A stretch of DNA of 43,194 bases from a virus. The notes under the pieces are model-generated. The model was not told where the DNA came from. It ran no database searches and was given only the letters and a program-made list of their open reading frames with translations. The stretch spans positions 1 through 43,194 of IMG/VR virus record IMGVR_UViG_3300028829_004643. The stretch is one strand, 5' to 3'. Of the stretch, positions 3,330 through 26,277 are shown in pieces; position 1 is the stretch's first letter, and every line of letters starts with the position of its first letter. The position numbers and the translations under genes were made by a program.

Positions 3330-3773
3330 TTAGTCCTGGGTATAAAAAATATGATCGTCAATTACTGTAGTAACCCGAAAAGACCATGACCAGTGTGGCC
3401 TTACATTTTTCGCATGATACCACAAAGCTCCTTCTGTAATGTCGAGAGGGCGTTGTTCTAGCAGATATTCAGAAAGTTTTACAGCCTTATCGTATGCAGC
3501 CTTGTCTGACACAAGCTCGCGAACTCCGTCGCAAAACCACGAGAACTGACACTTCCATCGAAGAGGAGGACTCTGTGTAGCCTGGTATACAACATCACAG
3601 ATAGTATTCGGAAACTTGCTGGACGCCACACGATTTAATGTAACATGACCCACAGCTAATTGACCCGCAACGCTTTCTCCACGACTTTCAAAGTAAATAT
3701 TCAACGCAAGACATTCGTTCGCCAATGAAAAAGGGCTCAAGAAGAGCCCTAAGATCAGTACCGCAATCTTCAT
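3330..3773 (-). CDS. SleB-type cell wall hydrolase with signal peptide, 147 aa
   Basis: The protein begins with a Lys, a hydrophobic core and an Ala-Asn cleavage region (residues 1-18), then carries the SleB/Hydrolase_2 signature: NIYFESRGES with the probable catalytic Glu at 29, VGHVTLNRV, FPNTICDVV and CQFSWFCDG. Members cleave peptidoglycan (lytic transglycosylase type), so with its export signal it is a likely endolysin or late lysis enzyme. The ATG overlaps the stop of the holin-like gene. A complete terminator structure lies inside the signal-peptide codons. A second lysozyme of a different family is at 14445. Confidence 0.85.
   Translation of the reverse strand: MKIAVLILGLFLSPFSLANECLALNIYFESRGESVAGQLAVGHVTLNRVASSKFPNTICDVVYQATQSPPLRWKCQFSWFCDGVRELVSDKAAYDKAVKLSEYLLEQRPLDITEGALWYHAKNVRPHWSWSFRVTTVIDDHIFYTQD
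3728..3750 (-). terminator. Terminator-like hairpin inside the SleB signal-peptide codons
   Basis: On the minus strand AGGGCTC, TTCTT loop, GAGCCCT followed by a T run. The 7-bp stem has no mismatch. It lies 23-45 bases into the gene and encodes residues LGLFLSPF. It could stop a share of transcripts between the holin-like gene and the hydrolase domain; ribosomes on the gene may counteract it. Confidence 0.6.
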
Positions 3774-3931
3774 TTTTCTGGAGTAAGTAACGTCCACACT
3801 CCGTAGAGCAGGCCAGCCGATGCAACTATCTTTGCGAGCTCTCCAAAGAGAATCACCGCTGCACAGCATCCACAAATAACAACACCGTCCCACGTACTTC
3901 TTTCTTCCAGTATCTTATTTAAATATTTCAT
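3770..3931 (-). CDS. Small membrane protein, holin-like, 53 aa
   Basis: A charged N-terminus ending in STWDG leads into a hydrophobic stretch with two Cys (about residues 15-30) and a second one (about 33-48), giving one long or two short membrane segments. AGGAGG precedes the ATG by four bases, and the stop overlaps the SleB start. Similar small peptides next to lysis enzymes are common in marine phages. Size, topology and position fit a holin or holin partner, but the function is inferred. Confidence 0.72.
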   Translation of the reverse strand: MKYLNKILEERSTWDGVVICGCCAAVILFGELAKIVASAGLLYGVWTLLTPEK

Positions 3932-4981: not shown

Positions 4982-5109
4982 AATGCAACTCCAGTTGTAA
5001 ATGTTACCCAACATGCAAGAATAAAAAACAGCACAAGAAGTGTATTGCCTATGCAGTAATTTATTCTCTTTAGGGAAACTTTACTCAGTGCTCGTTCCCA
5101 CCAGCTCAT
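4978..5109 (-). CDS. Micro membrane protein, 43 aa
   Basis: A basic N-terminus (SWWERALSKV) precedes one hydrophobic segment (about residues 22-42). AAGGAG lies six bases before the ATG, and the stop makes an ATGA overlap with the next gene. A single-pass inner membrane peptide of unknown role in the micro-gene chain. Confidence 0.7.
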   Translation of the reverse strand: MSWWERALSKVSLKRINYCIGNTLLVLFFILACWVTFTTGVAL

Positions 5110-5275
5110 ATATTTCTCCTTTTAAAACGTCTAATACATCCAGCATTTGCTCCCAGCTTTGGGGAGTATTGCATGCCTCGCTGATTCGAGCTGCGTTTAG
5201 TAGTTTGCGCGTCATCAGCGTATACGCACGTCCACGAGTTGATATGGGTAGATACTCTGCATCTGATATAATCAA
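5081..5275 (-). CDS. Hypothetical protein with TTG start, 64 aa
   Basis: A soluble, helical, slightly acidic protein. The TTG at 5275 is preferred because it overlaps the upstream stop (TTGA) and has GGAG about six bases before it; the frame continues upstream to a GTG at 5320 without a ribosome binding site. It overlaps the following gene by 29 bases. No family recognised. Confidence 0.65.
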   Translation of the reverse strand: MIISDAEYLPISTRGRAYTLMTRKLLNAARISEACNTPQSWEQMLDVLDVLKGEIYELVGTSTE

Positions 5276-5388
5276 ATAAAACTCCAAAGTAATATAAAGG
5301 GAAAAAGAAGCGTAAACCACGCTGCGATTTGAAGCGTGCGTTTACGACGTTTGGGTGAAAGCTCTAACCAAGCAGAAGAGATATACAT
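5272..5388 (-). CDS. Micro membrane protein, 38 aa
   Basis: A short N-terminus with a basic patch (PKRRKRT) followed by one hydrophobic segment (about residues 20-38). TTAGGAG precedes the ATG by about seven bases, and the stop overlaps the next TTG start. Topology by the positive-inside rule places the N-terminus in the cytoplasm. Confidence 0.68.
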   Translation of the reverse strand: MYISSAWLELSPKRRKRTLQIAAWFTLLFPFILLWSFI

Positions 5389-5456
5389 ATGTATACTCCT
5401 AAGTAAGTACCGAGTGCATAAACCATAAATCGAACACTTTTATCGAAGAACTTCAT
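5364..5456 (-). CDS. Micro membrane peptide, 30 aa
   Basis: MKFFDKSVR then a hydrophobic run to the end (ALGTYLGVYICISLLLG). It overlaps both neighbours (17 and 25 bases) and has no clear ribosome binding site, so translation would be coupled to the coiled-coil gene upstream. Confidence 0.5.
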   Translation of the reverse strand: MKFFDKSVRFMVYALGTYLGVYICISLLLG

Positions 5457-5571
5457 TTTCAAGCCTCGACGTCTTTTGTTCTAATTGCTGCAAAGTTTCC
5501 ATAATCTTACTTAGCTTTTCCTCTATTGCCTGTAGGCGAATAAAGTTTAGGTCATTTTCATTTATCATCAT
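5440..5571 (-). CDS. Micro coiled-coil protein, 43 aa
   Basis: Heptad-spaced Leu/Ile/Met residues (IEEKLSKIMETLQQLEQ) over most of its length suggest a single coiled coil. AAGGAG precedes the ATG, which makes an ATGA overlap with the upstream gene. It may pair with the coiled-coil protein encoded just before it. Confidence 0.68.
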   Translation of the reverse strand: MMINENDLNFIRLQAIEEKLSKIMETLQQLEQKTSRLENEVLR

Positions 5572-5771
5572 AGTCTCCTTAATATTTCAATTGTATTCTT
5601 GTACTTTTCAATATCTGCTTGCATTCCGAGCTGTTCTAGCTCTAATCCATCTATTTGGGCACGTAGTTCACCTATCGTCTTGTAAGCAAACTCTAGCAGC
5701 TCTGCAAACTCTAGCAGATCTTTAAGATCTAGCACCTCTTTAAACTCTTCTTCTTTTTTCGAATATCCCAT
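5568..5771 (-). CDS. Coiled-coil protein, 67 aa
   Basis: A highly charged helical protein with a short internal repeat (LLEFAELLEFA, about residues 19-29) and heptads to the C-terminus. The start overlaps the upstream stop (TGATG), indicating coupling. Function unknown. Confidence 0.7.
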   Translation of the reverse strand: MGYSKKEEEFKEVLDLKDLLEFAELLEFAYKTIGELRAQIDGLELEQLGMQADIEKYKNTIEILRRL

Positions 5772-5971
5772 CAGAATGTAAATCTCACCTCTGTTTCTAG
5801 TTTGTGCTTTAAAGTATCATCATTCGACGATATTCCTTCCCATTTACCCTTGATTGTAAGACTGTCAAATTGGAACTTATACCCTGTTTCGGCTCCAAAC
5901 TTACCATCACTTACATATCCACCTTCCCAATAAAAGTTTTTGAATTTTACTCCAGGTCTCAAATGATTCAC
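5771..5971 (-). CDS. Beta-strand-rich small protein, 66 aa
   Basis: It reads as alternating amphipathic beta strands and ends in VRFTF, a terminal Phe pattern seen in outer-membrane barrel strands, but there is no signal peptide. The start is a GTG overlapping the stop of a 6-codon mini-ORF (GTGA) placed just after a promoter, with no ribosome binding site. The frame is also open upstream across the promoter, so a longer relative cannot be excluded. Confidence 0.6.
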   Translation of the reverse strand: MNHLRPGVKFKNFYWEGGYVSDGKFGAETGYKFQFDSLTIKGKWEGISSNDDTLKHKLETEVRFTF

Positions 5972-5995
5972 CGTTTTTTCATACGCATCGGGTAT

Positions 5996-6024
5996 ATTAT
6001 AATTGATTTTTAGAAGTTTGTCAA
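5996..6024 (-). promoter_or_regulatory. Sigma70 promoter of the micro-gene chain
   Basis: Minus strand TTGACA (6024-6019), 17 bp, TATAAT (6001-5996), with AAAAACTTC before it. The predicted start near 5989 precedes the GTG at 5971 by about 18 bases. Confidence 0.9.
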
Positions 6025-6049
6025 GAAGTTTTTAGAGGTATAAAACTCC

Positions 6050-6118
6050 TTATTCGTCATCCCACGGTGGATTTATTACTAATGCACAAAAAATAAGTAT
6101 TACCATGATTTCTATCAC
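6050..6118 (-). CDS. Micro membrane peptide, 22 aa
   Basis: A GTG overlapping the upstream stop (GTGA), with GGAG seven bases before it, opens a 22-codon frame: a hydrophobic segment (MVILIFCALVI) and a short acidic tail NPPWDDE. Too short for homology arguments, but the coupling and ribosome binding site match its neighbours. Confidence 0.5.
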   Translation of the reverse strand: MIEIMVILIFCALVINPPWDDE

Positions 6119-6585
6119 GACCTGTCTCCATTGCTTAGGGGATTGTCCAAGACTTGCTGTATCTTTTTATTCAGCCTATCCTCAAGAGCGGTAATTTTTA
6201 GCTCTGTATCATTATATAGACTATCCCTTTTGTTATCGAATCTTTCACTTGCATTGTCAATCATCTGACCTATTTCTTGCTCTTGGTCACGAACCATATC
6301 TTCTACACGATCAACATTCTTCTCCATTCTGTTAAAGTCATCGCGCAAGTCGTTTTTAATACTCCGAGAGTAGTTTATAGCTTCGTCTAACTTTGTTTCT
6401 ATTACATCATTTCGAGCAGCAATTGCATCAGTATCTATATTAGCAATTATCTCTTTCATATCAGTATAATCCTTATAAAACTCAAAAGCACCCCAGGTTG
6501 CTCCACCCAGAGTTGATAATGCGGTGAGAAGAATCATCATCTTCCCTCCCTTAAATGTCATACCCCCAAATTCTACTTCAGCCAT
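6115..6585 (-). CDS. Membrane-anchored coiled-coil protein, 156 aa
   Basis: One membrane segment (about residues 16-37) is followed by roughly 100 residues of charged helix with heptad repeats (about 40-145). This plan, a short cytoplasmic or periplasmic anchor with a long stalk, is frequent in marine phage genomes and is sometimes placed with lysis or spanin-like functions. No catalytic motif is visible. The ATG lacks a strong ribosome binding site. It is the last gene of the exported-protein operon. Confidence 0.72.
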   Translation of the reverse strand: MAEVEFGGMTFKGGKMMILLTALSTLGGATWGAFEFYKDYTDMKEIIANIDTDAIAARNDVIETKLDEAINYSRSIKNDLRDDFNRMEKNVDRVEDMVRDQEQEIGQMIDNASERFDNKRDSLYNDTELKITALEDRLNKKIQQVLDNPLSNGDRS

Positions 6586-6599
6586 CTTTCTGCACCATC

Positions 6600-7034
6600 T
6601 TAGCCATTATCATCTCCTTCAAACTGTAAATTTTTTAGATTTACCAGCTCTTGCCTAAGTCTTTGTAGTTCAATTTCTTTTTTCTCAAGCTCCAATTTAT
6701 ATAACGCATTACAGTTAATTCTTTCTTTAGGGGCACCTATTGGTATAGTAATCTTTCCATAAACTCCTATGTCCCGTATAAATTTATCACTTTCAAAGTT
6801 CGGCATCGTTGTGCCATACATAGGATCGTAGGGATTAGATTGGTTAAGAATACCAACTACACCAAATTCAACATTTGTAGCGCTTCCTATAGCATTACTA
6901 CAGTCAATATCACCAGCTCTTATCCTATCAGACTGGTATGTTCCTCTACTAGAAGGAAGATTTAAGTTTAAGCTGGAATTATCCGCAAAAACTTCGAAGG
7001 ATACAAAAACTAAAAGTAAAGTGAGTAGTCTCAT
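6600..7034 (-). CDS. Exported protein with C-terminal coiled coil, 144 aa
   Basis: A signal peptide with an Ala-type cleavage site (about residues 1-18, FVSFEVFADN), a variable region of about 80 residues rich in Asn, Gly and Pro, then a coiled coil (about 110-138). The ATG at 7034 overlaps the upstream stop (ATGA), favouring it over an ATG five codons earlier. Exported to the periplasm or outer surface; role unknown. Confidence 0.7.
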   Translation of the reverse strand: MRLLTLLLVFVSFEVFADNSSLNLNLPSSRGTYQSDRIRAGDIDCSNAIGSATNVEFGVVGILNQSNPYDPMYGTTMPNFESDKFIRDIGVYGKITIPIGAPKERINCNALYKLELEKKEIELQRLRQELVNLKNLQFEGDDNG

Positions 7035-7408
7035 TTTATTTTGGAACATATTCTAGAAGATACTGCGGGTCTATTCCCATCTTCTTTCAGAACCTTTGAC
7101 TTTGAGCATACATACTTTGCTTTTGAAGCTTCTCTTCGCCTCACAAAAATTTCTACATCCACGGTCTGTAGATGTTCAACATATATAACTTTCTTAGGAA
7201 CTGCGAAAACGACTTTATTCCAGTTTTCGTCGTAAACCCCAAATGTGTAGTAGTTTATATCCTCACGCTTATTGAATAGTTTCATGTCAAGCCTTAGAAG
7301 CTCAGGTACATGGGATATTTTAAATACCGGATAGGTAGGAGTAAATTGATGGGCACTTGCGTGCCCACCAAATAACAAAGTTATTATTATTATTAAATAG
7401 CGATACAT
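7031..7408 (-). CDS. Exported protein, fimbrial-chaperone-like, 125 aa
   Basis: A signal peptide (residues 1-19, GGHASAHQ) is followed by a beta-rich domain with strands LLRLDMKLFN, YTFGVYDENW and VFAVPKKVIYV, reminiscent of the N-terminal Ig-like domain of periplasmic pilus chaperones; two Cys near the C-terminus may form a disulfide. The match to chaperones is by overall pattern only. It follows and overlaps a pilin-like gene by 16 bases, which supports the reading. Confidence 0.6.
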   Translation of the reverse strand: MYRYLIIIITLLFGGHASAHQFTPTYPVFKISHVPELLRLDMKLFNKREDINYYTFGVYDENWNKVVFAVPKKVIYVEHLQTVDVEIFVRRREASKAKYVCSKSKVLKEDGNRPAVSSRICSKIK

Positions 7409-7890
7409 TCGGCATTTACCACGGCAGTATAGTTACCTGCAGGAAGAGACTTGTTAAAGCCATATTCAGCAGTACTTTCTATTTTAAACCAGGTGCTTCC
7501 TGCAATAGTCAACTCAAACTCAGTAGTATTATTATATTCTACTTTATTGGTATCGTATGCAGACATACCAGCATCACTTACTTGATCTGTACTAACAGAT
7601 CCAGTCCATGCAACTACATCGTCCAAGACAGGGCTTGTAGTAAACTCATTGGGATAGTCGATAACTGCTTTATAATAGTCAGCACTTACTACATCATAAC
7701 GAACAATAGGCAATACTCCACCGTCCGCTGCAGCAGCACTTAACTTATAAGGCACTGGGTTACCATAGACACCAGTAGTGTCTGTAGTAATTACACACTT
7801 TGACTCAACTACCCCCTCGATAGGGGCCTCCTCACTAAACGCAGGAGCCGCTATTCCACTACATACTAACAAAATAGCTAATTTTTTCAT
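7393..7890 (-). CDS. Exported fimbrial-subunit-like protein, 165 aa
   Basis: A clear signal peptide (residues 1-20, CSGIAAPAFSEE) precedes a Thr/Val/Tyr-rich beta domain opening with VESKCVITTDTTGVYGNP and ending NYTAVVNAECIAI. A Cys near the start and one near the end, and a beta-strand C-terminus, are typical of pilin/spore-coat-U-type secreted subunits. The ATG at 7890 has GGAG six bases upstream. Likely secreted or virion-surface; the fold assignment is inference. Confidence 0.65.
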   Translation of the reverse strand: MKKLAILLVCSGIAAPAFSEEAPIEGVVESKCVITTDTTGVYGNPVPYKLSAAAADGGVLPIVRYDVVSADYYKAVIDYPNEFTTSPVLDDVVAWTGSVSTDQVSDAGMSAYDTNKVEYNNTTEFELTIAGSTWFKIESTAEYGFNKSLPAGNYTAVVNAECIAI

Positions 7891-7902
7891 GGAGTTCTCC
7901 AA

Positions 7903-8760
7903 TTACTTTGTCTCAAATTGAGACTCTACCATCTTTTGGTGTAGCAAATCCTGGGCTAAACCAACTCTATTTGCCTTAGGATTTGTCGGTAGACTCGCAT
8001 CCTTCAGCTCCAAGGAATCGTTGTAAACTCCTCCCTTAAGTTTTTCATAATAGGTGGTAGGGAACATGTAGTAAGTTAGAGAAGCATATTTAGCTTCTTG
8101 TAGTGGGCTAACTAAAAGCTTATTAACTCCTCCTAAGAGTACTTCTAATCTAGACTGACCTTCTAAGCCAGCCATTTGTCTGCGTTCGCGTTCTTCCTCT
8201 TCATCTTCTTTCTCTCGCTGCTCTTGTTCTATTGCTGCGAGTATAAACTCATCCTCCAGGGGGTCTTTATAATCTATTGTAATATCTTGCACGAACTGTT
8301 CTTGTTGAAATCCAGAACACCTTGGATCACTTTGCGGATCGTAACAAGGATCGTACCTGTAGCTATAAACAACCAACGGCTCTGATACTGTACCTTCTCC
8401 TTCAACTTCTATTGAACCTGAACCCCAGTATTCCAAAGGAATACCGCCCACCGACACTAACTTACTGATAGTGTTACCTGGCTGCCCAGTCCAGTCATCC
8501 GTCTCTCGAAAGACATAGCCGGGCCCTTGTGCATTTTCATTCTGCACGTGTACTAACATAAAATCATCGGTTTCTTTTACTGTTGTGTACCGATAAAACA
8601 CTGAACCCACATCTAAGCCTGCTTGCTGTGGTAGTAAATTTTGCATTCCCCAAACTTGATTTGTTGCAGAGACTTGCCCGTAAACTATGTCTGGATTAGA
8701 GTAGGAGTAACAAGAGTAAAGCGCCAATCCCACCGCTGGCAATAGCTGTCTTAGTTCCAT
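7903..8760 (-). CDS. Exported protein with Cys-rich loop and charged helix, 285 aa
   Basis: A signal peptide (about residues 1-21), a beta-rich region to about 145, a Cys-rich loop DPCYDPQSDPRCSG, then a highly charged helix dense in Glu and Arg (about 180-200) and a C-terminal helical part. No family recognised. Its first 65 bases overlap the end of the upstream gene; AGAGGG lies about nine bases before the ATG. Codon and length quality indicate a true gene. Confidence 0.7.
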   Translation of the reverse strand: MELRQLLPAVGLALYSCYSYSNPDIVYGQVSATNQVWGMQNLLPQQAGLDVGSVFYRYTTVKETDDFMLVHVQNENAQGPGYVFRETDDWTGQPGNTISKLVSVGGIPLEYWGSGSIEVEGEGTVSEPLVVYSYRYDPCYDPQSDPRCSGFQQEQFVQDITIDYKDPLEDEFILAAIEQEQREKEDEEEERERRQMAGLEGQSRLEVLLGGVNKLLVSPLQEAKYASLTYYMFPTTYYEKLKGGVYNDSLELKDASLPTNPKANRVGLAQDLLHQKMVESQFETK

Positions 8761-9244
8761 TCTTCATACCCTCTTCTTCTGGCTCTTTTTCTGTTTCTGC
8801 CAGCCATGCGGCCTTCGCCGCGTCTCCAATAAGGCCATCTTTCGGACACGGAGTTCCCGCATCCATCATTGCATCAAATACTCTTTCGTCCTGACACATA
8901 ATACTCACTGCAGCAACTTTCATTCCCATATCATAAAGTGTTTTTGCATTTTTCAACTTTTCACAGTTCATATCTCGTACAGTTCTACCTGCCGAGATAC
9001 CTAAAATTTGGGTTTGTACTGCACCTGCTACACCCACAGTACATAAGTCACTGTTCGAATTGTTCATAGTAGGAATGATCGCGCTTGGAGGAGGCGATTT
9101 GAGAGTTGTTGTGCTAGTGCTATCTACCGTGCTCGTAGTAGTCGCTTCAGTTTTAATTGTATTTTCATCCTGAGCAAGCACCGGAAATGCTAAGAGCATT
9201 CCTAAAACTACTATAGCACATACTTTAGTTCTGTTTGCTACCAC
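8696..9244 (-). CDS. Exported, C-terminally anchored Thr-rich protein, about 182 aa
   Basis: A hydrophobic signal sequence (VLGMLLAFPVLAQ) leads to a Thr/Ser/Pro-rich linker, a region with four Cys (TVGVAG to GTPCP), an acidic linker and a C-terminal membrane anchor ending in a run of Leu. The start is uncertain: GTG at 9244, with a TTG at 9262 also possible. The C-terminal anchor codons overlap the signal peptide of the next gene in another frame. Confidence 0.68.
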   Translation of the reverse strand: MVANRTKVCAIVVLGMLLAFPVLAQDENTIKTEATTTSTVDSTSTTTLKSPPPSAIIPTMNNSNSDLCTVGVAGAVQTQILGISAGRTVRDMNCEKLKNAKTLYDMGMKVAAVSIMCQDERVFDAMMDAGTPCPKDGLIGDAAKAAWLAETEKEPEEEGMKNGTKTAIASGGIGALLLLLLL

Positions 9245-9543
9245 TTTACTTTGTCCGCCCAATAAGCTGCGCTCATTTTACCACGAGCTATATTACGCCT
9301 GTGCCTTGCTTTAAAAGAAGCTCTCTTTTTCTTCATACGATCGCTTTCTCCAGCTTTTGGTTTTCCAGCAGTCTTTGCGCCTTGTTGTCCAAAACGAATA
9401 GTCTTTACTTTGTCGCCAACTTTGGCAACAACAATGTGTGATTTCTTCGGATGTTTAGGAGTACGTCGAGGCTTGTTATATCCCGACACACGGGCTCTTG
9501 CCAGACGAGAATCTTTCTTTTTAACCCTTCTTTTTGCTGCCAC
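9238..9543 (-). CDS. Very basic conserved phage protein (DUF6321-like), 101 aa
   Basis: Lys/Arg-rich N-terminus, then VVAKVGDKVKTIRFGQQGA and KPKAGESDRMKKKRASFKAR, and a C-terminal YWADKVKW. I recognise this as a family widespread in marine phages (DUF6321 as I recall; the number should be checked). Its strong positive charge suggests nucleic-acid contact. GTG start with AGGA seven bases upstream, overlapping the previous gene by 23 bases. Confidence 0.75.
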   Translation of the reverse strand: MAAKRRVKKKDSRLARARVSGYNKPRRTPKHPKKSHIVVAKVGDKVKTIRFGQQGAKTAGKPKAGESDRMKKKRASFKARHRRNIARGKMSAAYWADKVKW

Positions 9544-9727
9544 GTTTCGTTCCTAGTCGTCGCCTCTCTGCTAACAGAGTTTTTGGCACACGCTTGCCCT
9601 CTTTATAGAGCTTTGCAATACGCTTGATGACACGGGCCAACTTCGCTCGTTTTCCACCTTTCGTACCGCTTAGGTATTTTTTATTGACTCCAGTACGCTT
9701 ATCCTTTACCGCCTTCCGTCTCTTCAT
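9521..9727 (-). CDS. Very basic conserved phage protein, 68 aa
   Basis: Almost a third Lys or Arg, with the pattern TGVNKKYLSG, RVIKRIAKLYKEGKRVP and LLAERRRLG, which I recognise as a small domain recurring in marine phages (perhaps DUF5872; not certain). The ATG at 9727 is used although a TTG directly precedes it. It overlaps both neighbours. A DNA- or RNA-binding or DNA-condensing role is inferred from charge. Confidence 0.7.
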   Translation of the reverse strand: MKRRKAVKDKRTGVNKKYLSGTKGGKRAKLARVIKRIAKLYKEGKRVPKTLLAERRRLGTKRGSKKKG

Positions 9728-9839
9728 CAAATTCTTCCCATTCTGGATGCTCGAGCGCTTTTCTCTCTAACTTTTCCAATCTTTTTAGTAACCCACTGAA
9801 CTTTTCATTGAGCTCTTCTAGTGCGAAGTCTATCTTCAT
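9699..9839 (-). CDS. Small acidic helical protein, 46 aa
   Basis: A charged amphipathic helix (LNEKFSGLLKRLEKLER) followed by an acidic tail. AGGTGG lies about six bases before the ATG, and the end overlaps the next gene by 29 bases. In contrast to its basic neighbours it is acidic, so it might partner them; that is speculation. Confidence 0.65.
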   Translation of the reverse strand: MKIDFALEELNEKFSGLLKRLEKLERKALEHPEWEEFDEETEGGKG

Positions 9840-9858
9840 CAATTCCACCTAAAGGACA

Positions 9859-9966
9859 TTACATATACGCCGCGCGCATTTTTTTCTTCTTTTTACCCTT
9901 CTTCTTCTTGCCTTTAATCATATAGGCCATCAGAGCTTTCGGTAACTTTTTCTTCTTGTGTTTCAT
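9859..9966 (-). CDS. Lys-rich micro-protein, 35 aa
   Basis: Nearly half of the residues are Lys (for example GKKKKGKKKKKMRAAYM). GAGGAAAG lies upstream, and the start makes an ATGA overlap with the preceding gene. Its composition points to nucleic-acid binding; no family can be assigned at this length. Confidence 0.65.
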   Translation of the reverse strand: MKHKKKKLPKALMAYMIKGKKKKGKKKKKMRAAYM

Positions 9967-10247
9967 TTTGCTTTCCTCTTGCGTCTAAGATCCAGATCGT
10001 GTTTCTTAGAACCACGGATGAACGAATTTACACGAGCATGAGCCCATCGGCTCATAGTCATGCCTGGTCGTGATCCGCTTGATAAAAATGCACCCTGTCC
10101 ACGTCGGTAGACTTTTTTGAGGGTTGTGAGGGACTTTCCGCTCTTCTTAGCCTTTGCAGCTAAAGATTTGTTAACAGCAGCAGAAAGGGGCTTTCTCTTG
10201 CGAGTAGCCTTTCGTTTGGTGGGGGTCTTTCTTCGTTTAACTGCCAT
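9963..10247 (-). CDS. Basic conserved phage protein (DUF5824-like), 94 aa
   Basis: A Lys/Arg-rich N-terminus (residues 1-20) is followed by LKKVYRRGQGAFLSSGSRPG and WAHARVNSFIRGSKKHD. The YRRG-x-G, RPG and W-x-x-x-R-V-N-S-F sequence is the signature I associate with DUF5824, a family spread through marine phages and large viruses. Function unknown, probably nucleic-acid associated. A run of basic proteins follows it. Confidence 0.75.
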   Translation of the reverse strand: MAVKRRKTPTKRKATRKRKPLSAAVNKSLAAKAKKSGKSLTTLKKVYRRGQGAFLSSGSRPGMTMSRWAHARVNSFIRGSKKHDLDLRRKRKAK

Positions 10248-10270
10248 AGGTTATCCCCTATCGCCCGAGG

Positions 10271-10426
10271 CTATAAAGCCTCTATTTTTCGTCTCCTCAT
10301 TCTACGGTTGTATATATTTTTAATTCTTTTTCTGTCACCTGGTTTCCAGAAGTAATATTCTTTTGCGTAAAAGGCATCCCATTCGTCGCCACTTTTACAT
10401 TTCACTCGTTCTTTCTTTCCTTTCAT
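10271..10426 (-). CDS. Small basic protein, 51 aa
   Basis: KCKSGDEWDAFYAKEYYFW followed by an Arg/Lys-rich helix (KRIKNIYNRRMRRRKIEAL). The second part looks like a nucleic-acid-binding helix. The ATG at 10426 follows GGAAAG; an ATG four codons upstream (10438) is also possible. The 3' end contains a hairpin (GAGGCT/AGCCTC). It overlaps the upstream gene by 32 bases. Confidence 0.65.
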   Translation of the reverse strand: MKGKKERVKCKSGDEWDAFYAKEYYFWKPGDRKRIKNIYNRRMRRRKIEAL

Positions 10427-10550
10427 AAGGCTTTCCATTCCAATCGTGAGTTGTCCAGAAGCTAGTAGCTTCTTCCCAGCGAAAGAGAGATCTCCTAATG
10501 TGACACCAAAAAAGGCCGTCAGTTACGGTATGTTTCTTTTCCTCCAACAT
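10395..10550 (-). CDS. Small hypothetical protein, 51 aa
   Basis: The first gene after a long structured leader. AGAGGA precedes the ATG. The sequence is Trp-rich (FWCHIRRSLFRWEEA, SFWTTHDWNG) and otherwise unrecognised. It overlaps the next gene. Confidence 0.65.
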   Translation of the reverse strand: MLEEKKHTVTDGLFWCHIRRSLFRWEEATSFWTTHDWNGKPYERKERTSEM

Positions 10551-10832
10551 AAAATCCTCTCTTAATTAAAATAGGGTCGGGGGCGGCCTAATAGGGCGCA
10601 TTAAGTCTACTTGGTAGGCGTCGTCAGAGCATGTTTCTTTTAACGACACTTAATTTGCTTTATCCTTTGTCTAAAGCGCTAGGTGTATGCGCTAACGGTC
10701 TCAAATTAGCAAACCTACAACACCCCCAGTGTGAACGGTCGAAAAGCTCATGCGGCTAAATATGAGTCTTACTCTCCTAGACACCGTTCGTTAACGACAA
10801 GTTGCTTGCCGTGAGCGCAATGCTCATCAATA
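10551..10832 (-). other. Structured 5' leader, about 280 nt
   Basis: From the predicted transcription start to the first ATG there is no convincing ORF. Visible pairings include TGAGC/GCTCA near 10817-10831, a GAACGGT/ACCGTTC pair (about 10733-10791) enclosing CTCAT/ATGAG, AGCGC/GCGCT near 10675-10695 and TTTGC/GCAAA around it. Such a leader could carry a regulatory or antitermination element; no known riboswitch is recognised. Confidence 0.5.
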
Positions 10833-10838
10833 TTGGAA

Positions 10839-10867
10839 ATTATATCAATAATAGACCAAAATGTCAA
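10839..10867 (-). promoter_or_regulatory. Sigma70 promoter of the basic/exported protein operon
   Basis: Minus strand TTGACA (10867-10862), 17 bp, TATAAT (10844-10839), with AAAAATAGTTC upstream. Confidence 0.9.
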
Positions 10868-10885
10868 GAACTATTTTTGCGGTAC

Positions 10886-11101
10886 TTAGCAATCTGGATC
10901 AAAATCGAACCATTCCTGCTCCCAGCTAGGCTGTCCGTCATCTTCGAAAGCAAGCTCCGCTTGAATACAGGCGTGCACGGTTTCTACAGCGTGCTCATAA
11001 GATATACTGAAGCGATTCATTACTTCGAGAGTAATTTCTTCTTCCGGTTCTCCCCACATAGCTAAAACAACGCTTTCAATTTCAGGGTCTAAATGTGTCA
11101 T
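10886..11101 (-). CDS. Duplicated small acidic protein, copy 2, 71 aa
   Basis: Shares the opening MTHLDPEIESV and a C-terminal DDGQPS-x-EQEWF with the gene just upstream, so it is one of two tandem copies. This copy has a longer middle section (about 15 extra residues). The ATG follows GGAGAG. The frame is open further upstream, but that extension is the duplicated 3' end of the preceding genes. Acidic and soluble; no family recognised. Confidence 0.7.
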   Translation of the reverse strand: MTHLDPEIESVVLAMWGEPEEEITLEVMNRFSISYEHAVETVHACIQAELAFEDDGQPSWEQEWFDFDPDC

Positions 11102-11344
11102 ATTTCTCTCCTGCTGGGACATAAATATCACCCCGCTTCAACCGCTTACTTTCGAACCATTCCTGCTCGCAGCTAGGCTGTCCGTCATCTTCTTGCTCCG
11201 GAGCCCTATAGGGCACTGAGAAGGGGTCTACTTCCTCTTCCTCTTCCGGTATTCCCCACAAAAGAAGAATAACGCTTTCAATTTCAGGGTCTAAATGTGT
11301 CATATTTCTATCCTGCCGGGACATAAATATCGTCCCGCATCATC
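11071..11344. repeat. Tandem duplication junction, period about 202 bp
   Basis: A stretch of about 39 bases around the start codon (from the ATTTCT upstream of ATG through the codons for MTHLDPEIES) is nearly identical at 11071-11109 and 11273-11311. The similarity extends through the upstream codons for GDIYVPAG, which also end the methyltransferase gene, showing that the duplicated unit included its 3' end. A second shared block covers the gene 3' ends near 10906 and 11153. Confidence 0.75.
11082..11306 (-). CDS. Duplicated small acidic protein, copy 1, 74 aa
   Basis: Tandem paralogue of the next gene. Its N-terminus matches MTHLDPEIESV and it also has DDGQPS-x-EQEWF, but after this it continues into GDIYVPAG, a tail homologous to the C-terminus of the upstream methyltransferase, and stops past the start of copy 2. 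That tail marks the duplication joint. AGGATAG precedes the ATG. Confidence 0.68.
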   Translation of the reverse strand, partial: NMTHLDPEIESVILLLWGIPEEEEEVDPFSVPYRAPEQEDDGQPSCEQEWFESKRLKRGDIYVPAGEKYDTFRP

Positions 11345-11970
11345 CGTGTTAGTTTTTTGTAGTTGAACTCTTCAGTGACCCACTTATCAAATTCAAGTGA
11401 GCCGTAAAGATTTCCACCAAACCCAGGAATGAGTCCTTTGTTTTCTACTACCAATACAGGTTTAAATGTCTCGATAGTCTCTTTTGCTCCTATAAGAGCT
11501 TTTTTCTCCATACCTTCTATGTCTAACCAAATAAGGTCACAGGCAGAGAAGTTACTCATAGCGTATACTTCATCAATAGATGTAAGTCGTAATTCACCCT
11601 CTGCATCTTCTGTAACAGCAGTAGCGCCGCAATTATGGTCTAAAACAACCTGTGCAGATCCGTTGCTCGGTACATCAGAAAGACCAGCGTTCTCCACCAT
11701 AATATTATGGTCATCCCCCAAGTAATCATGGATATTTCGCATCATACATTCATGGGTGTCATGAACTGGTTCAAAGCTAATAACCATATCAAATATGGGA
11801 GATAATTTAATGGGGAAGTAACCTAAGTTACCTCCTGCCTGCACTACCACTTTGTGTCCGTGGCAGAGATCAGTAATTTTATTACCTTTTTGTTCCCATT
11901 CATTAATATTAGCTGGAGCAGTTGTTCTATCCCCAACAGGTACCCACAACTTATCTTCAAACCGATCCAT
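11308..11970 (-). CDS. FkbM-family methyltransferase, 220 aa
   Basis: VVVQAGGNLGYFP (about residues 42-54) is the SAM-binding glycine motif I, followed by an acidic strand end (ISFEPVHDTHECM) and DLIWLDIEGMEKKAL, the characteristic FkbM D-x-E-G motif. FkbM enzymes usually O-methylate sugars or natural products. The ATG at 11970 is used; a TTG four codons earlier overlaps the upstream stop. A second FkbM-like gene lies at 13055 and a glycosyltransferase cassette is on the opposite strand, so methylation of phage or host glycans is a plausible role. Confidence 0.82.
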   Translation of the reverse strand: MDRFEDKLWVPVGDRTTAPANINEWEQKGNKITDLCHGHKVVVQAGGNLGYFPIKLSPIFDMVISFEPVHDTHECMMRNIHDYLGDDHNIMVENAGLSDVPSNGSAQVVLDHNCGATAVTEDAEGELRLTSIDEVYAMSNFSACDLIWLDIEGMEKKALIGAKETIETFKPVLVVENKGLIPGFGGNLYGSLEFDKWVTEEFNYKKLTRMMRDDIYVPAG

Positions 11971-11971
11971 T

Positions 11972-12253
11972 TTATTTCCCAATGTCCTTAATTTCTGATT
12001 TAGGTATTACCTGATATGCACCTTTGTTGAAGGCAATTGATACAGTGTAATTCTTACTAACCTCTGATTTGTAACTTGTGTCCTGCGGCGTCTTGTAAGG
12101 AGTCATACTAGCACTAGGATAGTAGACGTTCTCACGTCGTGGCCTGGGACTTTGCTCAAGAGGTTTAAATACCTGCTTGACTTTTTTAACTTTCCGAACA
12201 GTTTTTCTCTTTCGACCGCTCGGAGTATATCCGATGCTGCCTTGAACTATCAC
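11972..12253 (-). CDS. Conserved small basic protein, 93 aa
   Basis: GTG start overlapping the upstream stop (GTGA). The opening GYTPSGRKRKT is a motif I have seen in other marine phage proteins; a Lys-rich region and a Ser/Tyr-rich tail follow. Function unknown. Confidence 0.7.
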   Translation of the reverse strand: MIVQGSIGYTPSGRKRKTVRKVKKVKQVFKPLEQSPRPRRENVYYPSASMTPYKTPQDTSYKSEVSKNYTVSIAFNKGAYQVIPKSEIKDIGK

Positions 12254-14927: not shown

Positions 14928-15533
14928 GTGATACCAAAATTGTATAAAGGCTTTCCAATTATTATAGCTGGTATTGGTCCTAGTCTAACCCCAGACGTAA
15001 TAGAAATAATGAGAAAATACAGGGATACCCATGTTATCCTTGGGATTAATGACGCCTATAAGATTATTGATTTTATGGATGAGCACTATGCCTGCGATGC
15101 TAGGTGGTGGAAGGTGCATGGTGAAATAATAAATAAAAAGTACCCTGACTTGCGATTGTGGTGTCATGATGAAGAAGGTGAAAAATATGGAGCTATTAAA
15201 GTAACTGGTAAAAATGGTTCCGGTTTATCTACCGATCCAACATATATTCATACAGGTTTGAACTCAGGATTTCAAGCACTTAACTTAGCTTATCATTGGG
15301 GTTGTTGTAAAATAATACTTGTTGGTTATAACATGGGAGGACTCAATGGTAAGAATCATTTCTTCGAAGGCAGAGAGAAAACACTAAGTGTATCGAGCCC
15401 TTACCCTCAATTTGCCGAACAGTTTGGGAGGATACAACCAGATATAAAAGACATAGTTGTAAACTGCACTCGAAGAACCCAACTAAAAGCGTTCAGGATA
15501 GGGAACCTGGAGGAAGAATGTTCAACATACTAG
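14928..15533 (+). CDS. DUF115-like protein of the glycan cassette, 201 aa
   Basis: Opens with PIIIAGIGPSLTP (about residues 10-22), the glycine-rich GPSL motif of DUF115/MptE-like Rossmann proteins, then VILGINDAYK, a W-rich segment and NSGFQALNLAYHWGC-KIILVGYNMGG. Relatives occur in surface polysaccharide and flagellin glycosylation loci. GTG start with AGGTG upstream. Clearly a paralogue of the gene at 16245, with which it flanks a capsule-synthesis-like gene. Confidence 0.7.
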   Translation: MIPKLYKGFPIIIAGIGPSLTPDVIEIMRKYRDTHVILGINDAYKIIDFMDEHYACDARWWKVHGEIINKKYPDLRLWCHDEEGEKYGAIKVTGKNGSGLSTDPTYIHTGLNSGFQALNLAYHWGCCKIILVGYNMGGLNGKNHFFEGREKTLSVSSPYPQFAEQFGRIQPDIKDIVVNCTRRTQLKAFRIGNLEEECSTY

Positions 15534-16312
15534 CCAAATCGCAAATCCCATGGCAAAGAAACTTAGCTCCTATTATATTAACAGGCTTGAGATCAATCGG
15601 TATACGTGTTAACATTAATGGATCAGGAGGCATACCCATTATTTTAGGCCCAAATATGTGGAAAAAATATGAGGTAGAAGATTACTTATTTGTAAACAGA
15701 TATTTTGTTGGTACTAAAAAAGGGGCGGTCAATAAAACCGTAGCCATATCTTGGAACGGTTTTAATGGTTTAGGAGAGTTTTGTGTAGATGGTATAGATT
15801 ATCGACGGTTGTGGAAATTTATAGACCAGGAAGATATTAAGTCTTGGAAAGACGGGCATGATTACCTACTTTTCGATCAAGTGGATAATGGTAGATCAGA
15901 TAAGTCCTTAGCGTCTTGGAAAGAATCTATAAAAGTACCTTATAAAACTCGTAGACATATAAGCCAAAACCCAGGCCCGTTAAAGCAAGATTTAAACAAT
16001 GTGAGGGCAGCTTTAACTTTCAATACTACAGCCGGCATTGAGTGCTTGATGCACGGTGTTCCTGTAGTGGCGCAAGACCTAGGCAACCCACTCTACTCCG
16101 CTGTAGGCCACGACATAGATGATATCAAATATCCTAATAGGTTACCGATTTTGCATTACCTTGCAAACTGTCAGTGGACTTATGACGAGATACAATTTGG
16201 TAAATGGTATGAACGCCTAGAAACAAGAAGAGGACCAAAACTAAATGCAGTCAATTCCAGCGAAATATGTAGGCGAGACAGTTACCGTGCTAGCCACTGG
16301 TCCGAGCCTTAA
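15518..16312 (+). CDS. Capsule-synthesis/glycosyltransferase-like protein, 264 aa
   Basis: The C-terminal region has TFNTTAGIECLMHGVPVVA followed by YSAVGHDI, the pattern of KpsC/KpsS-type capsular polysaccharide enzymes that bind an activated sugar. The first about 70 residues contain IPIILGPNMWKKYE and FVNRYFVGTKK. It probably transfers or modifies sugars. It overlaps the previous gene by 16 and the next by 68 bases; the last twenty or so residues are in the overlap and look poorly conserved. Confidence 0.7.
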   Translation: MFNILAKSQIPWQRNLAPIILTGLRSIGIRVNINGSGGIPIILGPNMWKKYEVEDYLFVNRYFVGTKKGAVNKTVAISWNGFNGLGEFCVDGIDYRRLWKFIDQEDIKSWKDGHDYLLFDQVDNGRSDKSLASWKESIKVPYKTRRHISQNPGPLKQDLNNVRAALTFNTTAGIECLMHGVPVVAQDLGNPLYSAVGHDIDDIKYPNRLPILHYLANCQWTYDEIQFGKWYERLETRRGPKLNAVNSSEICRRDSYRASHWSEP

Positions 16313-16925
16313 TGAAGAACAAGTATCTATAGTAAGGGGGAAATGGTCGGAAGGTAAAACGAGAGTTTTAACATTAAATAATTCTTATATGCTTGCCCCG
16401 TGGTCAGACATCCACATTGCCTGTAATGATAACTGGTGGGATTACTACCACAGCGACCCCACCCTCGTGGGAATGTCTGCCGATAAGTGGACTCGATATA
16501 AGCATCAAGAAAAGTATGGGCTTAATTTTATAGAGTCTTTCGATAGGCCAGGGCTCTCAAAAGATCCAAACTATATACATATAAATAAAGGCTCCGGACC
16601 GATGGCTATAAACTTTGCTACCCTTTACGGGTTTACAAAAATTATTCTTCTTGGTCACGATATGAAATTTGCTAGTGATTATGAAGGAAAGACAAAAACA
16701 GTGGGCAGCACACCGAGACACTTCTTCGGAGAGTATCCCAAAGAGATGCAGCACTTTCCAATGAGTTCTCAATCCGTTGCTCCCGATGGCACATTGAGAG
16801 GGCTTATAGATGTATATAGCAACATGTTGCCAGACTTAGCAGGTATAGACGTAGTAAACTGTACACCAAATACTTCATTGTATACCTTTAGATTAGGAGA
16901 GTTGGAAAATGAACTTAGCCGGTAA
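16245..16925 (+). CDS. DUF115-like protein, paralogue of 14928, 226 aa
   Basis: VTVLATGPSLNEEQ (about residues 13-26) is the same GPSL motif, followed by LTLNNSYMLAPWSDIHIACNDNWW, GSGPMAINFATLYGF-KIILLGHDM, and a C-terminus ending VNCTPNTSLYTFRLGELE that parallels VNCTRRTQLKAFRIGNLEE in the gene at 14928. The 68-base overlap with the upstream gene is needed because the GPSL motif lies in it. Probably in glycan transfer or recognition; activity unproven. Confidence 0.7.
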   Translation: MQSIPAKYVGETVTVLATGPSLNEEQVSIVRGKWSEGKTRVLTLNNSYMLAPWSDIHIACNDNWWDYYHSDPTLVGMSADKWTRYKHQEKYGLNFIESFDRPGLSKDPNYIHINKGSGPMAINFATLYGFTKIILLGHDMKFASDYEGKTKTVGSTPRHFFGEYPKEMQHFPMSSQSVAPDGTLRGLIDVYSNMLPDLAGIDVVNCTPNTSLYTFRLGELENELSR

Positions 16926-16946
16926 AGATAAAAGAGAGAAAAGATC

Positions 16947-17669
16947 ATGATGGAAGTAAAAACTAAAGTAATTAATGGAGTAGAGCTTGCTCTTCAGACA
17001 TTCTTAAGCCCGCCGCCTCGCGCGGCAATCACAAAGTACCCTACAGAGTTATCTGTAGTTTGCGTATGGTGGGGAGAGCTTTATGGTCCCGAGTATGTAA
17101 GGCACCTGAGAGATTCTGTCGCTAGAAATCTCACTGTACCATACACATTCTATTGTATTACGGATAGGCTAGAAGCCCCTGAAGGTATGGTTCATATTCC
17201 TTGTGAAAATCAAACAGGCTGGTGGCAGAAGGTGAATCTTTTTAAGCCAGGTCTTTTTGAAGGCAGAGTTTTATATCTTGATCTCGATGTTGTTATCGTA
17301 AAGTCTCTTGACTCTCTTGTGAGTTCGGAAGGAGACTTTATAATGATTGAAAACTTTGGTCCGAACAAGTCTCAGTCTGCTTTCAATTCGAGTGTGATGC
17401 TCTGGACGCCCAACGAGACTTCAGAAAAGATATATACGTGTTTTACTGATGAAGTAATGAAGATACTTCATGGGGATCAATGTTGGGTATGGAGAGTGCT
17501 TGGCAATAGTATTCTTGCCTTCGAGAAATCCCTTGTAGAAAGCTATAAATATTCAGCATTCAATGAATGGCGCCGTTTTTCTATGAACACTTCCGTTATG
17601 GTATTTCATGGGTCTCCAAAACCTCATCAGGTTCAGGGTAATAAACTTATAGTTAGTAACTGGAGATGA
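16947..17669 (+). CDS. Glycosyltransferase (GT8/DxD type), 240 aa
   Basis: ELSVVCVWWGELYGPEYV begins the nucleotide-binding fold; RVLYLDLDVVIV (about residues 108-119) holds the DxD metal/nucleotide-sugar motif; FNSSVMLW and VMVFHGSPKPHQV near the C-terminus complete the pattern of GT-A fold retaining glycosyltransferases. Cytoplasmic. It overlaps the mini-ferredoxin-like ORF by ATGA. Confidence 0.8.
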   Translation: MMEVKTKVINGVELALQTFLSPPPRAAITKYPTELSVVCVWWGELYGPEYVRHLRDSVARNLTVPYTFYCITDRLEAPEGMVHIPCENQTGWWQKVNLFKPGLFEGRVLYLDLDVVIVKSLDSLVSSEGDFIMIENFGPNKSQSAFNSSVMLWTPNETSEKIYTCFTDEVMKILHGDQCWVWRVLGNSILAFEKSLVESYKYSAFNEWRRFSMNTSVMVFHGSPKPHQVQGNKLIVSNWR

Positions 17670-17761
17670 TACTTTGTGTTTGTCATGCAGTACGCTCTGG
17701 TGAGAAAGACAGATATCACTTGATTGGTACTAAGTGCGGAAAGTGTTTGGAGAAAAAATGA
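17666..17761 (+). CDS. BFD-like mini iron-sulfur or zinc peptide, 31 aa
   Basis: The start overlaps the upstream stop (ATGA) and follows TGGAG; the end overlaps the next gene by ATGA. Residues 4-7 read CVCH and 22-27 GTKCGKC, so Cys are at 4, 6, 24 and 27. C-x-C and C-x2-C with these neighbours is the hallmark of the bacterioferritin-associated ferredoxin (BFD) [2Fe-2S] domain, but the loop between the pairs is about half the usual length. A zinc knuckle is the alternative. Confidence 0.65.
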   Translation: MILCVCHAVRSGEKDRYHLIGTKCGKCLEKK

Positions 17762-18528
17762 TTGTAGTAGCAATACTTGCAAAGGATAAAGAATATTGTC
17801 TACCTTTCTATCTGACCTGTTTATTAAAACAAACTGTGAAGAAGAAAGACATAGCTCTTTATATTCGCACAAATGACAATAAGGATAATACCGAGGCGAT
17901 ACTAAAAAACTTTATAGATATGTATGGCAATGAGTATGCTTCTGTTTATTACGATGACTCCTCTATAGACGATACTTTGACTCAGTATGACGAGCACGAA
18001 TGGAATAGTCATCGTTTTTTGATTCTTGGAAAGATACGCCAAGATTCTATCGACTATGCAAATACTATGGGAGCAGACTATTTTACAGCAGACTGCGATA
18101 ACTTTATTGGTCCTTCTACGCTGAAGGATATGCAAGGAGATAAAGTTGTAGGACCAATGCTCTCCCTTCTGCCTACACTGAGTTATGCTTCGTTTCATTA
18201 CAAAGCATGTCCTCACGGATATTATGAACATACTCCTCAGCAGAATATGATACAGCAAGGAGAGATTAAAGGAATTATAGAGGTAGACACTGTTCACTGT
18301 ACCTATTTTATTCCTCATCATATTCTAAAAGAAGTTTCATATTATGATGGTACAGAGCGATATGAGTATGCTATTTTTAGCGATAATTTAAGAAGGAAAA
18401 AAATACCCCAATACATAGATAACAGAGATTTTTATGGTTTTCTGTATTTGAATGATCAAATAACTATTGGGTTCCCAAATTTCATAAAAAATTATTGGTA
18501 TGACCAATATACAAGGTTTATAAGATGA
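17758..18528 (+). CDS. Glycosyltransferase, procollagen-galactosyltransferase-like, 256 aa
   Basis: VVAILAKDKEYCLPFYLTCL, then LYIRTNDNKDNTEAIL, then DYFTADCDNFIGPSTL (a DxD motif near residue 111) match the pattern of GT-A glycosyltransferases of the PLOD/GLT25-like group. The ATG at 17758 has GGAG upstream and overlaps the previous stop; an in-frame upstream extension lies inside the mini-protein. It ends in an ATGA overlap with the next gene. Confidence 0.75.
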   Translation: MIVVAILAKDKEYCLPFYLTCLLKQTVKKKDIALYIRTNDNKDNTEAILKNFIDMYGNEYASVYYDDSSIDDTLTQYDEHEWNSHRFLILGKIRQDSIDYANTMGADYFTADCDNFIGPSTLKDMQGDKVVGPMLSLLPTLSYASFHYKACPHGYYEHTPQQNMIQQGEIKGIIEVDTVHCTYFIPHHILKEVSYYDGTERYEYAIFSDNLRRKKIPQYIDNRDFYGFLYLNDQITIGFPNFIKNYWYDQYTRFIR

Positions 18529-19085
18529 AAAATCAAGTCTATGTTATAGATGACTTCTACAGTAACCCCGACGATGTTCGAAACAATGCACTGTGCGCAG
18601 ATTATAATGTATCTGGGAACTATCCAGGAATGAGATCTGGTCCTCAGGAAGCATCACATTCTCTGTATTTAAAAAAGTTTTTTGAAGATAACATTATTCA
18701 TAACCATATTAGCCACTGGTCTCTTGACGATTACAACACCGCATTTCAATATACAGATAAGAATGACCATACATGGGTTCACCATGATTCTACGGAGTGG
18801 GCAGGAGTTCTTTATTTAAGTAAGGATCCCTTACCAGAAAGTGGCACCACAATATATTCGAGAATTGACAACGGAGTCTACGAACACGTCGACGAAGCGA
18901 CAGACTACAATACTGATTCAGACCTAATCGTTAATCTAGCGAACTGGAGACAGGAAGTATCTGTGGAAAACAGGTATAACAGGCTCATTCTTTATAGGGG
19001 CGCACTCTACCACCGTAGCACGAATCCTGGGTGGGGAGATGGTCCACACAACGGTCGTCTCTTTCAGGTATTCTTCTTCTCATGA
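18525..19085 (+). CDS. DUF6445-like 2OG-Fe(II) oxygenase, 186 aa
   Basis: VYVIDDFYSNPDDVRNNAL at the N-terminus, HTWVHHDSTEWAGVLYLS (about residues 79-96) with an H-x-D iron-binding pair, and RLILYRGALYHRS (about 150-162) with the distal His, followed by GRLFQVFFF. The jelly-roll order is that of prolyl-hydroxylase-type oxygenases; I relate it to DUF6445. It sits between two glycosyltransferases, so the substrate may be a sugar or protein-linked group. Confidence 0.75.
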   Translation: MKNQVYVIDDFYSNPDDVRNNALCADYNVSGNYPGMRSGPQEASHSLYLKKFFEDNIIHNHISHWSLDDYNTAFQYTDKNDHTWVHHDSTEWAGVLYLSKDPLPESGTTIYSRIDNGVYEHVDEATDYNTDSDLIVNLANWRQEVSVENRYNRLILYRGALYHRSTNPGWGDGPHNGRLFQVFFFS

Positions 19086-19969
19086 AAGTTTTAGTAACAC
19101 TTCTAACCTCACATGATATACGTCGTTTCTCTCGTCTAGTAAACTCCTGCGTGAAGATAGAGCCTGCTTATGGTATAAATCTAGTACCAATTATAGTTGT
19201 AAATACTACGAGCGACGCTTACTATAGAGAGGTGATTGCTTGCAAGTTTCCTTATCCCGTAATTCGCACAGAAAGTAATGGATGGCCTGGAAAGGGGAAG
19301 AACTCTTGTATGGACATCTTTCTAAAGTCGGACGCAGATTTTCTTCTTCAAATGGACGGAGATGACTTCTTTTACCCGTCTTGTGGAAAGTCTCTCGCAG
19401 GTATTTTAAGACGATATGGTAGATCGCTCGACGTACTAGGACTCTATCCCACCGACAAAGTCACTCTTGTCCCACTTAATTGTGGGTATGAGTTTGAGTG
19501 GGAGCACGCTATATATCCCAAGCTTCATGGAACTTGCTGGACAAGTTCAATTGTCTGGCCAGGAGACAAACAACCCGGCCCACGTAGGGGCGAATGGTGG
19601 GATGCAGAGATGCCCGTGAGTCAAAATACTATCTATATTCGTAGTAAGAAGTCATGTAAATATAGATTTCCAGAAGATATTCCTAACGGAGAAGATTCCT
19701 TTTTAGGAACAGTACTGCTTGCTGCACACCAGCAGGGAGATATAAATTACTTTGTGTCGATGTCTTCAGACTTCTATGTATATGATGAAGTTGTAGAGAA
19801 CTCTATACAAAAACAAGAACCTTGGAGAAACTGGGTAGGAACATGGAAAGAACGAGTAGAGAGTACTCTCAATGCAAATCGTTCTAACTTCCTAGAACTT
19901 CCAATAATCTACCAAGATTTACAAATAACAGGAGCCGAAAAAGAGGCTTGGATAAAGGAACATTACTAA
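19082..19969 (+). CDS. Family 2-like glycosyltransferase, 295 aa
   Basis: KVLVTLLTSHDIRRFSRLVNSC starts the fold; about residues 77-87 read FLLQMDGDDFF, containing the DGDD/DxD nucleotide-sugar motif; NGEDSFLGTVLLA follows near residue 200 where GT2 proteins carry the catalytic ED. The ATG at 19082 makes an ATGA overlap with the oxygenase gene. Likely inverting transferase acting on a surface or virion glycan. Confidence 0.75.
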   Translation: MKVLVTLLTSHDIRRFSRLVNSCVKIEPAYGINLVPIIVVNTTSDAYYREVIACKFPYPVIRTESNGWPGKGKNSCMDIFLKSDADFLLQMDGDDFFYPSCGKSLAGILRRYGRSLDVLGLYPTDKVTLVPLNCGYEFEWEHAIYPKLHGTCWTSSIVWPGDKQPGPRRGEWWDAEMPVSQNTIYIRSKKSCKYRFPEDIPNGEDSFLGTVLLAAHQQGDINYFVSMSSDFYVYDEVVENSIQKQEPWRNWVGTWKERVESTLNANRSNFLELPIIYQDLQITGAEKEAWIKEHY

Positions 19970-26220: not shown

Positions 26221-26249
26221 TTGACTTTTCAGCTCGAATCACTTATAAT
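26221..26249 (+). promoter_or_regulatory. Sigma70 promoter of the second ligase gene
   Basis: TTGACT at 26221-26226, 17 bp, TATAAT at 26244-26249, preceded by AAAATAGTTC. The second ligase part therefore has its own promoter. Confidence 0.92.
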
Positions 26250-26277
26250 AATTGTTCTTTCAGTGGAGTTACAAATT

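Follow-up and report, generated by a model that had tools for sequence, protein, structure and literature searches.

A conserved six-gene cassette of mostly exported proteins is common to unrelated tailed phages and may remodel the surface of the infected cell

Why would a tailed phage carry a run of consecutive genes whose products are predicted to leave the cytoplasm? This question is raised by a virus record of 43,194 nt from IMG/VR (IMGVR_UViG_3300028829_004643), which was analysed at its full length and is referred to here as the window. Its plus strand carries replication genes, among them a DNA polymerase whose best match is to T5-like phages at ~41% identity, and positions 5000-12000 gave no nucleotide match in the phage collection. 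A sequence-only reading had placed five consecutive genes with signal peptides at 6600-9244. All five ORFs (P1-P5) were found there on the minus strand, but the unit proved to be larger, as a sixth conserved gene, P6, lies outside this range (Table 1).

Table 1 Coordinates and main features of the cassette in the window.
Feature	Position	Strand	Description
P1	8696-9244	minus	182 aa; GTG start; predicted signal peptide, T/S/P-rich linker, four-Cys module, hydrophobic C-terminal tail
P2	7903-8760	minus	285 aa; predicted signal peptide, conserved N-terminal region, E/R-rich helix, conserved C-terminus
P3	7393-7890	minus	165 aa; predicted exported Ig-like β-sandwich, pilin-like; invariant C32 and C162
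P4	7031-7408	minus	125 aa; predicted exported single-domain PapD-like fold; invariant C101 and C121
P5	6600-7049	minus	149 aa; predicted exported; mature N-terminus SSSLNLNLP and two short β-like stretches, all conserved; C-terminal charged helix
P6	6115-6585	minus	156 aa; predicted N-terminal membrane segment, long coiled coil, C-terminal DNPL
P1/P2 overlap	8696-8760	minus	65 nt, 3' end of P1 and 5' end of P2 in different frames

Each of P1-P5 begins with a positively charged n-region and a hydrophobic h-region that lead to an AxA-like site. As the crude rule used to score signal peptides was also positive for 12 other ORFs among the 71 tested in the window, the evidence for them is their conservation across relatives rather than the rule itself. 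A signal peptide was scored in 47/47 aligned relatives of P1, 66/67 of P2, 70/72 of P3, 71/71 of P4 and 70/70 of P5, and the predicted signal peptides are beyond chance. A lipobox was not seen in the P1-P5 sequences. All 71 sequences of P4 have a histidine, H20, directly behind the predicted cleavage site, a placement that points to metal binding or to an N-terminus that is fixed; no further conserved histidine was seen in this alignment.

Scans of viral contigs with the individual proteins returned relatives of P3 on 34, of P5 on 356 and of P1 on 546 contigs. When profiles of all six proteins were run over 202 sequences, comprising the loci and the window, the complete series P1-P2-P3-P4-P5-P6 was found in that order in 149; the rest mostly retained part of the order, and many of them were cut by contig ends. 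Removal of duplicates left 103 distinct full cassettes. Among the 22 larger records tested, three encode a T4-type gp23 capsid protein, five (the window included) a family-A DNA polymerase as in T5-like phages, and three a phrog_1216 portal. The cassette of the window shows 57% identity to that of a T4-like record versus 50% to that of another T5-like record. Judging from sequence, P1-P6 are one cassette in fixed order that is common to several unrelated types of tailed phage; its relationships cut across phage type, and it appears to move between types.

Relatives of P1 occur in isolated pelagiphages and in one roseophage, and profile searches recovered relatives of P6 in pelagiphage HTVC115P (E 5e-40) and roseophage CRP-810 (E 3e-14). 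In several isolate phages, P1 is followed by longer exported P2-like proteins and by P6-like proteins, the latter recognised by eye. P2 matches a longer pelagiphage P2-like protein weakly and at the C-terminus only (prob 10), and the gene order agrees. By tblastn, none of P2-P5 matched any of the 50,697 phage records, the phage collection likewise gave nothing for P6 or for a P4 consensus, and P2 was also unmatched in plasmids. One scan of genome contigs with P3 returned three short contigs in MAGs. These are probably misbinned phage, and a bacterial source of P3 was thus not found. The top matches of P4 in BFVD are all uncharacterised phage proteins, one of them from Klebsiella phage Eowyn (E 3e-4). 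P1 matches phrog_20531 (E 4e-13) and P5 phrog_37374 (E 2e-6), the aligned P2 members have no consistent Pfam match, and profiles of P1-P5 gave nothing better than E 0.06 against the sequences of solved structures. No description of the cassette was found in the openly accessible literature, and apart from the unnamed PHROGs, the P1-P6 protein families appear to be undescribed in the libraries searched.

P1 contains a conserved four-cysteine module, CTVGVAGAVQTQILGIS...MGMKVAAVS.MCQD...AGTPCP, and ends in a hydrophobic tail that had been taken for a C-terminal membrane anchor. The tail is present, but it lies entirely within the overlap with P2, where the other frame encodes the P2 signal peptide. 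In 98 of 100 distinct loci, the two genes overlap by 62 nt or more and fall into the same frame class. The tail is hydrophilic in five relatives of P1 without that overlap, namely those of HTVC023P, Mosig, HTVC202P, CRP-810 and an uncultured autographivirus; in the autographivirus, the P1- and P2-like genes overlap by 8 nt only. HTVC115P has a hydrophobic P1 tail beside a P2-like gene whose annotated start, which is probably too late, yields no signal peptide. Since the tail falls within the P2 signal-peptide DNA and the five overlap-free relatives end hydrophilic, a real membrane anchor in P1 is doubtful, and the hydrophobic tail may be a by-product of overprinting. The charged helix that had also been proposed was found in P2 and P5. 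For the conserved N-terminal region of P2, a β-rich structure is likely.

P4 had been compared to the N-terminal domain of a pilus chaperone, and its AlphaFold model (pLDDT 90.7, from an alignment of 71 sequences) bears this out at the level of the fold. The top Foldseek matches were FaeE (E 2.6e-5), DraB (6.4e-5) and PapD (1.3e-4), and VIA aligned residues 19-125 to FimC and DraB with a Z of 10.7 (rmsd 2.5-2.6 over 99-101 residues). The model thus supports a PapD-like fold as in the N-terminal domain of fimbrial chaperones; as MSP domains come next by VIA with a Z of 9, this fold is broader than the chaperone family. The two cysteines, invariant in 71/71 sequences, lie in strands 99-105 and 119-123, which model and alignment identify as the F1 and G1 equivalents. 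An F1-G1 disulfide is a feature of FGL chaperones (PMC4133393, Table 2), which P4 shares by the position of its cysteines, the disulfide itself being predicted. In chaperones, a G1 lysine and an A1 arginine anchor the C-terminus of the pilin (PMC4133393). Position 123 in the G1 strand of P4 is K or R in 71/71 sequences, and the A1 position, with the register set by eye, is Tyr26 (70/71), so that the arginine is absent and no basic residue takes its place. Of the donor positions before G1, 116 and 120 are always hydrophobic, 118 is Ser in 68/71 and 114 is mostly polar. P4 ends at the G1 strand, and a second, C-terminal Ig domain is absent from the family (median 129 aa, maximum 162 aa). PF00345 (PapD_N) does not appear in the list of 25 Pfam families for the 71 P4 members, and when mature sequences were compared with K-12 chaperones by HHalign, column shuffling reached a score as high in 20 of 60 cases.

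For P3, the proposal was a pilin-like domain with cysteines at its ends. The cysteines stood: C32 lies in the first strand and C162 in the last strand of an Ig-like sandwich modelled by AlphaFold with a pLDDT of 91.2 (alignment of 72 sequences). The pilin-like fold fared less clearly. The top Foldseek matches include CfaB, FimF, the pilin domain of PapG and CsuA/B, with E from 7.5e-4 and a TM of ~0.4, whereas VIA ranks other Ig-like adhesins first (Z 7.7) and nothing stands out. The models support a pilin-sized Ig-like sandwich, and the pilin reading of P3 is weaker than the chaperone reading of P4. Pilins carry a disulfide between strands A and B (PMC5625045), which is absent here. In the shown sequences and the family consensus, ~11 residues separate the predicted cleavage site from C32, and there is no N-terminal donor extension. 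No Pfam pilin match was present among the families listed for ~70 P3 members. HHalign of P3 with K-12 pilins gave a P of 1.7e-4 when signal peptides were included; with mature sequences, shuffling of the columns gave a score as high in 7 of 60 trials. As significance was lost once the signal peptides were removed, sequence homology of P3 and P4 to these proteins was rejected as a signal-peptide artefact.

How close does this bring the cassette to chaperone-usher pili? Like these, it pairs adjacent genes for a PapD-like N-domain, with FGL-like invariant F1/G1 cysteines and a basic G1 residue, and for an Ig-like sandwich whose best Foldseek matches are pilins. Unlike them, P4 is a single domain without the A1 Arg and without a clear donor motif, and P3 has no donor extension and carries its cysteines in the first and the last strand rather than in A and B. 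Moreover, sequence homology is not detectable, and the usher family PF00577 is absent from 37 cassette records, although these may be fragments and a usher of the host is possible. We therefore do not class P3 and P4, which resemble pilin and chaperone in their modelled fold, as members of a chaperone-usher system. The fimbria suggested at the outset is not supported, given the lack of an usher in the 37 records, of Pfam or profile homology and of a donor extension in P3.

Among the neighbouring genes with a named match, those upstream of the cassette mostly encode tail-fibre, tail-fibre-assembly and virion proteins, and the small and large subunits of terminase are commonest downstream. As the cassette sits between these two groups, its late expression is likely. 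Lysis genes are also found near it, namely holin phrog_3427 and endolysin phrog_181. In the window itself, 3330-3893 (minus) encodes a Hydrolase_2 cell-wall hydrolase (PF07486), apparently with its own signal peptide, which suggests that this endolysin is exported.

Several further features of the window were observed. Immediately upstream of the cassette, 9238-10247 (minus) holds a run of small, very basic proteins, e.g. KSHIVVAKVGDKVKTIRFGQQG...GKMSAAYWADKVKW; this family occurs in the flank of 52/151 full-cassette loci and also after P6 in roseophage CRP-810. A short ORF at 5771-5971 (minus) is weakly similar (E 0.045, below the cut-off) to the C-terminal part of PF24653, a cyanophage outer-membrane-like β-barrel, and its cluster is present in the flank of 16/151 full-cassette loci. 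Beside the cassette on the opposite strand, a gene cluster at 14928-19969 (plus) resembles glycosyltransferases or other surface-sugar genes, which would fit a modification of the envelope. The neighbouring, overlapping ORFs 10886-11131 and 11082-11324 (minus) have the motifs MTHLDPEIESV... and DDGQPS.EQEWF in common and apparently represent a tandem duplication. The NAD-dependent DNA ligase is apparently split into two genes, 24029-24955 and 26221-27027 (plus), and the same split is found in T5.

Five exported proteins together with a coiled coil at the inner membrane argue for an assembly that is sited either in the periplasm or on the outer membrane. Late in infection, P1-P5 would be exported by Sec into the periplasm, P6 would be anchored in the inner membrane by its predicted segment of about residues 16-34 with the coiled coil in the periplasm, and P4 may hold or pair with P3 and possibly other members. 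Assembly at or on the outer membrane would change the surface of the infected cell. In the use that we favour, receptors would be masked or jammed, and the dying cell and its fragments would not absorb sibling or rival virions. It is probable that phages with the cassette rebuild the cell surface of their host during infection; to the full reading, a modular phage cassette for an exported envelope assembly that remodels this surface, with adsorption control as its favoured use, we assign a tentative probability of about 0.4. Of the earlier suggestion that these proteins form a surface structure or alter receptors and superinfection, export to the envelope and a role at the surface of the infected cell remain plausible.

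Adsorption control is favoured by analogy with Llp of T5 (PMC9586334) and with the proposals made for pelagiphage curli (PMC9599517, PMC7029224). The phage lipoprotein Llp is exported, binds the receptor FhuA from the periplasmic side and abolishes adsorption (PMC9586334). The cassette resembles it in directing phage proteins to the envelope, and the phage of the window has T5-like replication genes; Llp, however, is a single small lipoprotein, whereas the cassette comprises six proteins without a lipobox. Pelagiphages carry a multi-gene exported curli system (PMC7029224, PMC9599517), and curli/type VIII secretion genes are also known from methylophage Melnitz (PMC7029224, PMC9599517, PMC9004378). 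Both phage-borne exported multi-gene sets and single exported exclusion proteins are hence already known. Phage curli and the cassette alike are multi-gene exported sets of conserved order that are common to unrelated marine phage types, and for the function of which exclusion, sibling capture and lysis are under debate. The cassette differs in its protein families and in its genomic place, from tail fibre to terminase. Membership in the curli system was rejected, as neither P1-P6 of the window nor the families listed for the P2-P5 alignments gave a CsgG, CsgF or curlin-repeat Pfam match. Against an envelope assembly speaks the position of the cassette among late genes, whereas exclusion proteins are usually made early (PMC9586334), as do the missing lipobox in P1-P5 and the unmatched P2-P5 in the phage collection.

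Egress is the strongest rival to adsorption control, given that the cassette lies ahead of the terminase genes and given how P6 is laid out. At lysis, the exported proteins and P6 would then help to open or break the outer membrane, either alongside classical spanins or in their place, which we consider possible but somewhat unlikely. With its N-terminal membrane segment and coiled coil, P6 is laid out like the inner-membrane spanin of an Rz/Rz1 pair, and the holin, the endolysin and the exported Hydrolase_2 enzyme are encoded nearby. In pelagiphage HTVC023P, the P1/P2-like pair adjoins an M15 peptidase, and T7-like phages have their lysis genes between the tail fibre and the large terminase. 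Yet true Rz-like (phrog_739) and Rz1-like (phrog_812) genes were each found in the fetched flank of 11/151 full-cassette loci, and as they coexist with the cassette in some loci, it is not simply the spanin of its phages. Spanin membership of P5 and P6 was rejected, since neither matched a spanin PHROG and P5 has no Cys after its signal peptide. Further exported partners set the cassette apart from Rz/Rz1, and pilin- or chaperone-like folds are not known in lysis.

A surface fibre, in which P3 would polymerise with P4 as a minimal chaperone into a pilus-like appendage for capturing siblings or for aggregation, in the way suggested for the curli of pelagiphages, appears quite improbable. It would account for pilin-like and PapD-like folds from adjacent genes and for the invariant F1/G1 Cys pair and always-basic K/R123 of P4, as in FGL chaperones (PMC4133393), and one may speculate that the conserved β-like mature N-terminus of P5 donates a strand. 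It is at odds with the ~11 residues before C32 of P3, with the usher-free 37 records and non-significant sequence profiles, and with a P4 that lacks domain 2, has Tyr26 for the A1 arginine and shows no clear alternation of hydrophobic residues (Ser118). Less probable still is, in our view, a display of the proteins on or near the tail fibres as components of the virion, in which case the signal peptides would be used for assembly at the membrane. The upstream tail-fibre and tail-fibre-assembly genes would fit such a role, as would the P1 relatives that in some cases lie beside tail-fibre genes, but with five conserved Sec signal peptides, the proteins would be expected to leave the cytoplasm, the site of tailed-virion assembly, and the conserved Cys pairs would suit the oxidising periplasm.

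A bolder proposal, which we hold to be unlikely, is a phage-borne Ig-fold assembly system, independent of an usher, of a minimal PapD-like chaperone, a pilin-like subunit and four partners, which would form a new structure on the surface of infected marine bacteria and pass as a whole from one type of tailed phage to another, T4-like and T5-like phages among them. Six genes that are kept in order across tailed-phage types and on hundreds of viral contigs must pay for themselves, and despite this spread their proteins are unnamed, with P2-P5 unmatched among the phage records searched. If the remodelling of the envelope holds true, the cassette would join curli as a second surface system carried by phages, and would be relevant to superinfection, the aggregation of cells and release in the ocean. 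The cassette also offers a concrete test of whether Ig chemistry of the chaperone/pilin type works without an usher.
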